Virus record (IMG/VR): IMGVR_UViG_3300047491_000661
Coordinates: 1 to 26,902 of that record
DNA: 26,902 nucleotides
Reading direction: 5' to 3' (one strand)
DNA from: a virus
The notes beneath the pieces were generated by a model. It did not search any database and was not told the origin of the DNA. It saw only the letters and a list, made by a program, of their open reading frames with translations. Each line of letters opens with the position of its first letter. The first letter of the stretch is position 1. A program made the position numbers and the translations under genes. This document shows, piece by piece, positions 8,062 to 10,282 of the stretch.

Positions 8062-9045
8062 CTAGAAAACAAGTTTTCTGTTTTTGGCTCGTTCATTTTG
8101 CTCTATCTGATACTCTAACTCTATCAAGTCATTTTCAAGCTCTACCTGTTTTAAGTCATCGCCTATCTCTATCGCTCTACTATACTCGGCATTGAGTTGT
8201 TTATACTCGGCTTTTAGCTCGTCTATGTCCTCGCTATAATCAAAGTCGCTTTCATCATATCCATAGCGATCCCATAAAGAATAGTCGTTATACCCATAGG
8301 GGTTATCTTGTTTATCGCCAAACATAAACTCTCGGCTTGTTGTTTTTAGCGTTTTTAAGTCAAGCTCGTATAGCGTATGCTCGTCTATCTCTTTTCCAGA
8401 TCCCTCGCTCGCTAGTCGCATAAAGTCTTTACTCTCGTCTAGTTTTAAAGGTGATCTTTCATTTCTACCATAAAAGACTTTTAGCACTTGGCTATCGTCT
8501 TTCGTGGTTTGAATAGCTACAAAGGCAATACTACCTGATATATCTAGCTTGTTTTGGCTTTTTTCAATACCATTTGCAAGCTCTATTGCTAGACTTTCGC
8601 TATCGTTAAACATAGTTGAGTAGTAAGTCTTGCCACTAGTGATCCACTCTTTCCTAATTGAAGTTGAATAGTTGAAGCCCTGCTTTTCATGTTTTTCTTT
8701 CAGCTTTTGGCTATCCATTATAACTCCATTATGTATAACATAGTAGTTATATCTTAAATTAAGATTTGACACCCGGATAGGGTGAGCCACCTCGGCAAAA
8801 TTTGGCGTGCTAGTCGGTTGTCGGTGGTGAAACATAATAAGAGATGAAGCTGTAATAGCTTTCAGCTCTTTTCTGATTTCATTTTCGCTTTCCGTTCTAG
8901 TTATTCTATCTATCTTGCCCTTTAGGCTAGAAGCTACAAAGCCAAAGCCCTCTACTCCTCTCGTTTTTTGGCTCTCGTATGCTTTTAGCACTTGTTTGAC
9001 GGCATTTTTACCGTCTTTTCTGATTATTGTTATAATGCCACACAT
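8062..9045 (-). CDS. Class II (Ntn-type) glutamine amidotransferase
   Basis: I start the gene at the ATG that makes MCGIITIIRK, because class II amidotransferases expose Cys2 as the nucleophile; the frame is open to 9111 but the extra 22 residues overlap the upstream gene. The 327-aa protein shows Cys2, the Arg/Gly loop KTRGVEGFGF (28-36), HHRQPTST (73-80), AHPI (87-90), HNG at 105-107 for the oxyanion hole and NDSE at 147-150, all as in the GlmS/PurF glutaminase domain. It should release ammonia from glutamine. No synthetase or isomerase domain is fused; instead residues about 240-327 are Asp/Tyr-rich then coiled-coil. The start lies 1 nt after the stop of the amidoligase gene, so the two proteins probably act as a pair. 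Confidence 0.85.
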   Translation of the reverse strand: MCGIITIIRKDGKNAVKQVLKAYESQKTRGVEGFGFVASSLKGKIDRITRTESENEIRKELKAITASSLIMFHHRQPTSTPNFAEVAHPIRVSNLNLRYNYYVIHNGVIMDSQKLKEKHEKQGFNYSTSIRKEWITSGKTYYSTMFNDSESLAIELANGIEKSQNKLDISGSIAFVAIQTTKDDSQVLKVFYGRNERSPLKLDESKDFMRLASEGSGKEIDEHTLYELDLKTLKTTSREFMFGDKQDNPYGYNDYSLWDRYGYDESDFDYSEDIDELKAEYKQLNAEYSRAIEIGDDLKQVELENDLIELEYQIEQNERAKNRKLVF

Positions 9046-9046
9046 A

Positions 9047-10282
9047 TTATTTATTTTCTGTATTATCGCTTGTAAGTTCATTGACACAAAACTTTTTCGC
9101 CCGGCTTTCAAAATAACCTACAATGTCATCATTTAGATCCCATTTCAGCATTTTATAAAGCATTTCTCGTTTTGTTTTTGGATCGGTTATATTTTGGATA
9201 GTTTTTAGCATTTCCTCGTTATAATCTTTTCCAATAGCCCATTTCATCAAAGACAAGTTCATTTCAGCCCAAAATAGGATCTTATTTTTGTCTATCGTGC
9301 CACTATGATAACGGAGTTCCAGGTGGTTATCCCATAGCAAGCAGTGAAAATTGAAGCCATGATACCTAGTATTGCTGTTTTTTGTCTTTTTGATCTCGTC
9401 AATTATTTTTAGATCATCTTGCCTATACCATATCTGCTCTAGTTTTTCTTGCGTTTCAGCGTTCCTAATCTCGGCTATGTTGTAATCGTTCTGCAAAATC
9501 TTGCAGTAGTGATTATTTCGCCTAGAAAATGGCAAAAACATCATCAAAACTGGTTCTACATAGTAATAAGTAGTAAAAAGTCTTTTACAGTTTTTTAGCT
9601 TGTCCTCGCCTGTAAAACTTTTTGATCCGTCAATGTGTAAGTGAAGCCCACAAGTTTTATCGGTGTAGTAGTCGTTCCGGTTCAAGGTTGAGCAAAGATT
9701 TTTGATAAAGTCCTCGCCCGTCTTTCCCTTTAGAATAGGCGTTTGAAACTCCACACCATTATCACCTAGTGATCCATCATAGGATATACCTAAATCGCAT
9801 GATAGCGTGCTTTCTGCTAGATCATTTTGACTATCATAGTCTTGGCAATAGCACTCTATTTCAACAGCAAAACCTCGTATGGTTTTGATTATATTCCCAT
9901 GCTTAGTGCTTTTATACTTGTCATTTTGAGATACTTTTCTTGTTTGTAATCCGTCTTGATCGTCTTCATCAAAGTTTCCATATCCGTTATCTCGGCAATA
10001 CTCGCAATAATCGTTATTGTCGCTATCAACATATCTATTATCTGTATGGCACCACTCCTCACAATGATAGCAACAAAAATGATCGTTCTCACGACACCCC
10101 TCGCAATAAGCGGTGTCATTAATGTATGTCATGTCCTCCTGATAAAATACACTCTCACAATCCTCGCAAGTTTGGTAATTGTCATCAAAACAATTTAGGC
10201 ACACTTGCTTGTCGTTAGGATCAAGGTATTTAGGATCATTTTCCTGTATAATTGTTTGGCATTTTTCGCAATTTATACTCAT
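9047..10282 (-). CDS. Putative amidoligase (Amidoligase_2/COOH-NH2 ligase) with N-terminal zinc fingers
   Basis: From ATG 10282 the protein is 411 aa (a TTG at 10321 is the alternative). Residues 5-96 hold six CxxC pairs (5-8, 28-31, 39-42, 60-63, 71-74, 93-96), enough for three four-cysteine, LIM-like zinc sites. Residues 137-330 match the amidoligase core of the glutamine-synthetase/GCS fold: GFAVEIEC with Glu141 and Glu143, YDGSLGDNGVEFQTPILKG (168-186), CGLHLHID (211-218) with two metal-type histidines, and LELRYHSGTID (321-331). Such enzymes use ATP to join a carboxylate to an amine. The family is known to be encoded beside glutamine amidotransferases, as here. The substrate is unknown; the fingers could bind a protein or nucleic acid target. 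Confidence 0.82.
   Translation of the reverse strand: MSINCEKCQTIIQENDPKYLDPNDKQVCLNCFDDNYQTCEDCESVFYQEDMTYINDTAYCEGCRENDHFCCYHCEEWCHTDNRYVDSDNNDYCEYCRDNGYGNFDEDDQDGLQTRKVSQNDKYKSTKHGNIIKTIRGFAVEIECYCQDYDSQNDLAESTLSCDLGISYDGSLGDNGVEFQTPILKGKTGEDFIKNLCSTLNRNDYYTDKTCGLHLHIDGSKSFTGEDKLKNCKRLFTTYYYVEPVLMMFLPFSRRNNHYCKILQNDYNIAEIRNAETQEKLEQIWYRQDDLKIIDEIKKTKNSNTRYHGFNFHCLLWDNHLELRYHSGTIDKNKILFWAEMNLSLMKWAIGKDYNEEMLKTIQNITDPKTKREMLYKMLKWDLNDDIVGYFESRAKKFCVNELTSDNTENK

Follow-up and report, generated by a model that had tools for sequence, protein, structure and literature searches.

A phage amidoligase with a predicted LIM-like zinc array and an adjoining class II glutamine amidotransferase

A virus record in IMG/VR (IMGVR_UViG_3300047491_000661, positions 1 to 26,902) encodes an amidoligase in which six CxxC pairs, equivalent to three predicted Zn(Cys)4 sites, precede a GCS/GS-fold core, and the next gene encodes a class II glutamine amidotransferase (GAT-II). 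Our preferred reading, which we put forward tentatively, is that the pair constitutes a two-component enzyme that would amidate a carboxylate with glutamine-derived ammonia and ATP, the target being docked by the array. The pairing of amidoligase and GAT-II is already known in phages (LUZ24-like, OM43 and Arthrobacter phages). The zinc array on a phage amidoligase seems to be undescribed, and what is new, although priority is not certain, is this array, the way it goes with GAT-II, and how such enzymes contrast with amidoligases linked to a cyclotransferase. Below, "the window" refers to the whole stretch of DNA that was analysed, 26,902 nucleotides in length.

Two enzymes and a cysteine array

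The amidoligase gene lies on the minus strand, running from an ATG at 10282 to a TAA at 9047-9049 (Table 1). A sequence-only reading of the window had the coordinates right, as well as the motifs VEIEC, GVEFQTPILKG, CGLHLHID and LELRYHSGTID, all of which are present in the 411-residue protein. The GAT-II frame begins with MCGII at 9045, one base (9046) after the amidoligase stop as that reading had noted, and ends at 8062. The two genes are thus coupled as read from their coordinates, and translational coupling is likely. The pair heads a leftward operon that contains primase, helicase and nuclease genes. GC content of the window is 36.8%, and the regions upstream of most genes are AT-rich and lack a clear Shine-Dalgarno motif. 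A second contig, IMGVR_UViG_3300042261_000709, is 100% identical to the window over 10,370 bases. Among the window ORFs scanned we recognised no base-modification or pathway genes and found no ATP-grasp protein, second ligase or cyclotransferase, on a contig that may be incomplete. PADLOC defence models matched neither the amidoligase nor the GAT-II gene, and classification of the pair as a defence system was dropped for that reason.

Table 1 Features of the amidoligase/GAT-II locus in the window
Feature	Coordinates	Strand	Basis
Amidoligase gene, 411 aa: N-terminal predicted zinc array and GCS/GS-fold core	9047..10282	-	PF12224, phrog_2443, AF2 model
Predicted zinc-array region, residues 5-96, LIM-like/treble-clef-like modules	9995..10270	-	Six CxxC = three predicted Zn(Cys)4 sites
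Amidoligase catalytic core, residues 136-404	9071..9877	-	Invariant alignment columns; structural matches over 128-411
Class II glutamine amidotransferase (GAT-II; Ntn glutaminase), 327 aa, N-terminal nucleophile Cys2	8062..9045	-	NCBIfam, conserved residues
Single base between amidoligase stop and GAT-II start	9046..9046	-	Sequence read directly

Profiles and models agree with the amidoligase fold assigned from the sequence. Pfam Amidoligase_2 (PF12224) matches residues 157-345 with an E value of 7.6e-21 (score 75.5 bits; cut-off 22), and the PHROG matches, phrog_2443 (E 1.6e-23) and also 7469, are annotated as "amidoligase enzyme". An AlphaFold2 (AF2) model of the whole protein, run with 38 aligned relatives, has a mean pLDDT of 89.6. 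Structure comparison of residues 128-411 returns YbdK (Z 14.5 over 246 residues) and plant glutamate-cysteine ligase (Z 13.7), the modelled core matches glutamine synthetase with Z 12.6 (others about 12), and Foldseek also finds the pupylation enzymes Dop and PafA. This part of the protein therefore has a fold in common with YbdK, gamma-glutamylcysteine ligase, glutamine synthetase and PafA/Dop; it differs from YbdK-type enzymes in its sequence (about 10% identity), the extra array and the separate glutaminase gene. The catalytic residues are intact as judged from a 38-sequence alignment (A2), in which E141, E143, D169, S171, E178, C211, G212, H214, H216, R306, N311, E322 and R324 are invariant, and the conserved Glu, His and Arg positions fit the predicted ATP-dependent formation of an amide bond. 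HHalign gave no match between the amidoligase profile and E. coli GshA, and we therefore claim no residue-by-residue mapping to the metal sites of glutamate-cysteine ligase.

The CxxC pairs, located at residues 5, 28, 39, 60, 71 and 93 and thus ahead of the core as the sequence-only reading had described, are not readily obtained by chance: 20,000 composition-preserving shuffles of residues 1-112 gave a mean of 1.4 CxxC and a maximum of 5, never reaching six. Alignment reveals a conserved ladder, with 12/12 cysteines invariant across 25 aligned arrays. Homologous arrays contain 4-12 CxxC at a regular spacing of about 22 then 11 residues, so that array size ranges from 2 to 6 modules among relatives while the cysteines remain invariant. 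From these pairs we infer zinc binding.

The LIM-like character suggested for the modules is supported by several comparisons. Searched against solved structures, the array profile finds LIM domains best (CRP1, E 1.2e-6; PINCH, 2e-6; FHL2, 2e-6). Modelled alone by AF2, the array has a pLDDT of 93.4; LIM proteins top its Foldseek list, weakly (E 4e-3), and VIA-align gives a LIM Z of 4.0, tied with FYVE and ZZ fingers. Pfam LIM (PF00412) does not match the window's own array; it matches 15/25 homologous arrays with E values of 0.05 or lower, down to 6e-9, and the L197 protein surpasses the cut-off with 44.5 bits. The window array shares the repeated CxxC-x~20-CxxC modules of the LIM domains of PINCH, FHL2 and CRP, but its ligands are all Cys and its successive zinc sites would be separated by about 7 residues (Cys31 to Cys39, Cys63 to Cys71), where a true LIM domain has 2, which is why we describe it as a LIM-like, treble-clef-like array and not as a true LIM domain. 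LIM-like modules bind proteins in solved relatives, and to our knowledge LIM-like protein-docking arrays are uncommon outside eukaryotes; the array could also bind nucleic acid or merely stabilise the fold. Array-bearing amidoligases are matched by phrog_16683, of unknown function according to PHROG, and by an uncultured phage protein in BFVD (A0A6J7X2B6) with the automatic name "LIM domain containing protein". Phage amidoligase/GAT cassettes were reportedly first proposed by Iyer et al. in 2009; that original proposal aside, we found no literature linking an amidoligase with LIM domains and no description of this architecture.

The product of the second gene has the features required of a class II glutaminase, namely an N-terminal Cys, a glutamine-binding Arg and Asp, and an Asn-Gly oxyanion hole. 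In a 26-sequence alignment the nucleophile C2 is conserved in at least 90%, and R29, G30, H73, R75, T78, H105-N106-G107 and D148 are invariant. NCBIfam glmS/purF N-domain profiles match the window protein (E 6e-12 for glmS, partial). Its score with Pfam GATase_6 is 20.5 bits, below the cut-off of 27, which relatives pass (56 bits in L023, for example). A profile of the GAT-II family has GlmS, PurF and AsnB as its nearest solved relatives (E 9e-30 to 7e-11; GlmS 9e-30), compared with E 0.7 for the gamma-glutamyl amidohydrolase EgtC. In tblastn the window GAT-II matched no phage record, which we attribute to its divergence, since profile searches readily found partners. Many loci encode a GAT-II with 2-6 CxxC of its own at the C-terminus, a module that the window GAT-II lacks. 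These CxxC-ended frames (L023, 2483-3658; L033, L038, L068, L180, L196 and others) resemble the amidoligase arrays; Pfam LIM matched none of the four such proteins tested.

Partner genes across environmental amidoligases

To put the pair in context we surveyed amidoligases in IMG/VR, which were clustered at 50% identity into 100 clusters; the second survey profile (A4) was biased towards array-bearing sequences. Among the matches listed, 68/175 non-identical untruncated amidoligases have at least four CxxC, and 42/100 clusters (~40%) have an array, with one to three CxxC in 5 and none in 53. The earlier impression that an array is unusual on a phage copy is thus not borne out in the environmental clusters among the matches listed, though the 12 GenBank phage homologues examined at the outset all lack one. 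MW202733, a podovirus genome from Manatee Spring, encodes an array amidoligase followed by a GAT-like gene.

Recurrent pairing with the amidotransferase, which the sequence-only reading had proposed as a check, was found across phages. Scoring as neighbours only same-strand genes within 450 nt that matched GAT-II profiles built for this analysis, a GAT-II neighbour is present in 41/42 array clusters vs 19/53 clusters without CxxC among the matches listed (Fisher p 5e-11), and in 5/5 clusters with one to three CxxC among those same matches. The 19 array-less clusters linked to GAT-II indicate that the array is not needed for the coupling. Gamma-glutamyl cyclotransferase genes have a different distribution, occurring in the available flanks of 1/42 array vs 28/53 array-less clusters among the matches listed (p 2e-8). 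Both partners are present in five array-less clusters among the matches listed, and also in Melvirus.

The association between array and GAT-II is strong by count but may reflect common descent. The array label is clustered on the amidoligase tree, where it needs 12 changes, and branches with good support require no fewer than 6 of them. An independent-pairs test of the link, which has low power, gave 2/6 pairs in the same direction. Distances between ligases and between GAT-II proteins are correlated (Mantel r 0.57, with 0/2000 permutations as high), and a single locus (L174) holds the nearest relative of both the window amidoligase and the window GAT-II; the terminase of that phage is 42% identical to the window terminase over residues 273-483. 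As judged by layout, the pair has no further recurrent neighbour across the survey set.

Possible functions of the pair

In the two-component enzyme that we tentatively favour, GAT-II would hydrolyse glutamine and pass the ammonia to the amidoligase, whose GCS/GS-fold site would activate a carboxylate with ATP to give an amide. The N-terminal array of predicted zinc modules would serve as a docking arm, recruiting the amidoligase to a target that is most likely a protein or peptide and perhaps to GAT-II as well. The closeness of the GAT-II family to the ammonia-producing domains of GlmS, PurF and AsnB, and its distance from EgtC, supports glutamine-fed amidation; the lack of a recurrent third gene favours direct action on an existing substrate over a multi-step pathway; and a module number of 2 to 6 with invariant cysteines is as expected of a docking arm. 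The co-occurrence of array and GAT-II, the correlated distances of the two partners, the protein binding of solved LIM-like relatives and the similar CxxC modules that end many GAT-II proteins also speak for this reading. Points against it are the clustering of the array on the tree, the amidoligases that pair with GAT-II and have no array (19 clusters among the matches listed, and one of the two in L015 and in L243), and the missing Pfam LIM match for the CxxC modules of GAT-II. A wider proposal, that a large phage family of GCS-fold ligases amidates or tags proteins, with a changeable LIM-like array to aim them and a dedicated glutaminase to feed them, is doubtful at this stage. If true, phages would encode a system of post-translational modification whose aim is modular and which differs from the cyclotransferase-linked amidoligases. 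Phage amidoligases are common, and their split by partner gene and docking arm provides a testable handle, with the arm usable as bait for the target; should that target prove to be proteinaceous, phages would have here a little-known route to rewriting host or virion proteins. The literature surveyed reports no tested substrate of a phage amidoligase.

The near exclusiveness of the cyclotransferase and GAT-II contexts (1/42 array vs 28/53 array-less clusters with a cyclotransferase, among the matches listed) could also be explained if GAT-II substitutes for the cyclotransferase seen beside array-less amidoligases. The amidoligase would then join the gamma-carboxyl of glutamate to an amine and GAT-II would hydrolyse it off, and the nearest solved folds do include ligases that use this gamma-carboxyl. 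Ergothioneine synthesis offers a known ligase and class II amidotransferase-type pair of this kind, EgtA being a GCS-type ligase that adds a gamma-glutamyl group and EgtC a class II amidotransferase-like amidohydrolase that removes it (PMC9103826). However, the GAT-II family is far nearer to the GlmS/PurF glutaminases than to EgtC, and GAT-II and cyclotransferase coexist at some loci (the five array-less clusters among the matches listed, and Melvirus), making this explanation unlikely.

Modification of the cell wall or surface, in which the pair would amidate or cross-link peptidoglycan peptides or a surface polymer and so block superinfection, has been proposed in print for related amidoligase/GAT cassettes of phiEco32, RIO-1 and LUZ24-like phages (PMC10580990, PMC5498523, PMC11318856). 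Those papers offer a proposal and not an experiment, and we consider such a role improbable for the window pair: a LIM-like docking arm is better suited to a protein target than to a peptide of the wall, and the published cassettes, which can have as many as seven genes, include additional ligases as well as ATP-grasp and cyclotransferase genes that are not seen beside the window pair among the ORFs scanned. The phage cassettes (phiEco32, LUZ24, tf, UFV-P2, RIO-1/PSA-HP1 and OM43 phages) resemble the window in having Amidoligase_2 near a GATase_6 gene in the early region; several also hold a COOH-NH2 ligase, ATP-grasp and cyclotransferase, whereas the window has the pair alone plus the zinc array. 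Similar in layout are the Arthrobacter phages Salgado (gp98/gp99) and Ottawa (gp65/gp66), in which, as in the window, the amidoligase is directly followed by GAT-II and neither ATP-grasp nor a second ligase is annotated; unlike the window, these pairs lack a CxxC array and their loci contain a cyclotransferase-like ORF.

The genes might instead be ordinary auxiliary metabolic genes in which nothing is docked and the array just stabilises the protein or mediates contact between ligase and GAT. Some GAT-II partners end in similar CxxC modules, so that the modules could pair mutually, and the array can be missing or lose its cysteines (L191, L073); the wide variation in module number and the lack of a module on the window GAT-II argue against this, and we regard it as decidedly improbable. 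Finally, a role in small-molecule or base-modification chemistry, in which the pair would amidate a metabolite or a modified nucleotide and the array would bind nucleic acid, is very unlikely given the lack of base-modification or pathway genes among the window ORFs scanned and of a recurrent third enzyme, even if zinc modules can bind DNA or RNA and the operon headed by the pair includes primase, helicase and nuclease genes.

Locus variants and relatives

Several loci depart from a simple pair. In L015 (1841-6573) and L243 (1869-6300) four abutting genes encode an array-less amidoligase, GAT-II, an array amidoligase and GAT-II, that is, two complete pairs in tandem that are relatives of the window pair, with one of the two amidoligases lacking the array. 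A single contig (L210, 6591-14090) has one GAT-II amid five CxxC-array amidoligase paralogues. A recurring layout (L023, L027, L033, L059, L063, L085, L188, L196 and others) consists of an amidoligase of ~600 aa, GAT-II, a gap of ~300 nt and an array amidoligase of ~390 aa, the longer amidoligase having ~190 additional N-terminal residues ahead of its array. The amidoligases at L073 (857-2104) and L282 (3542-5026) are linked to GAT-II and have no CxxC pairs; the long N-terminus of the former still has aromatic and acidic residues in a repeated pattern, and resembles an array that has degenerated and lost its cysteines.

Relatives were also found in Omnitrophota, Oscillospiraceae, Bdellovibrio and archaeal bins. 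Three Omnitrophota contigs (L216, L217 and L218, one from a single-cell genome) encode an array amidoligase and GAT-II with a 203-aa ORF downstream, the L217 copy of which matches RNA polymerase sigma factors; the window terminase had no match in three Omnitrophota genomes. In Oscillospiraceae genomes, some of them from isolates, an array amidoligase abuts GAT-II (loci L226, L228, L229, L230 and L234-L236).
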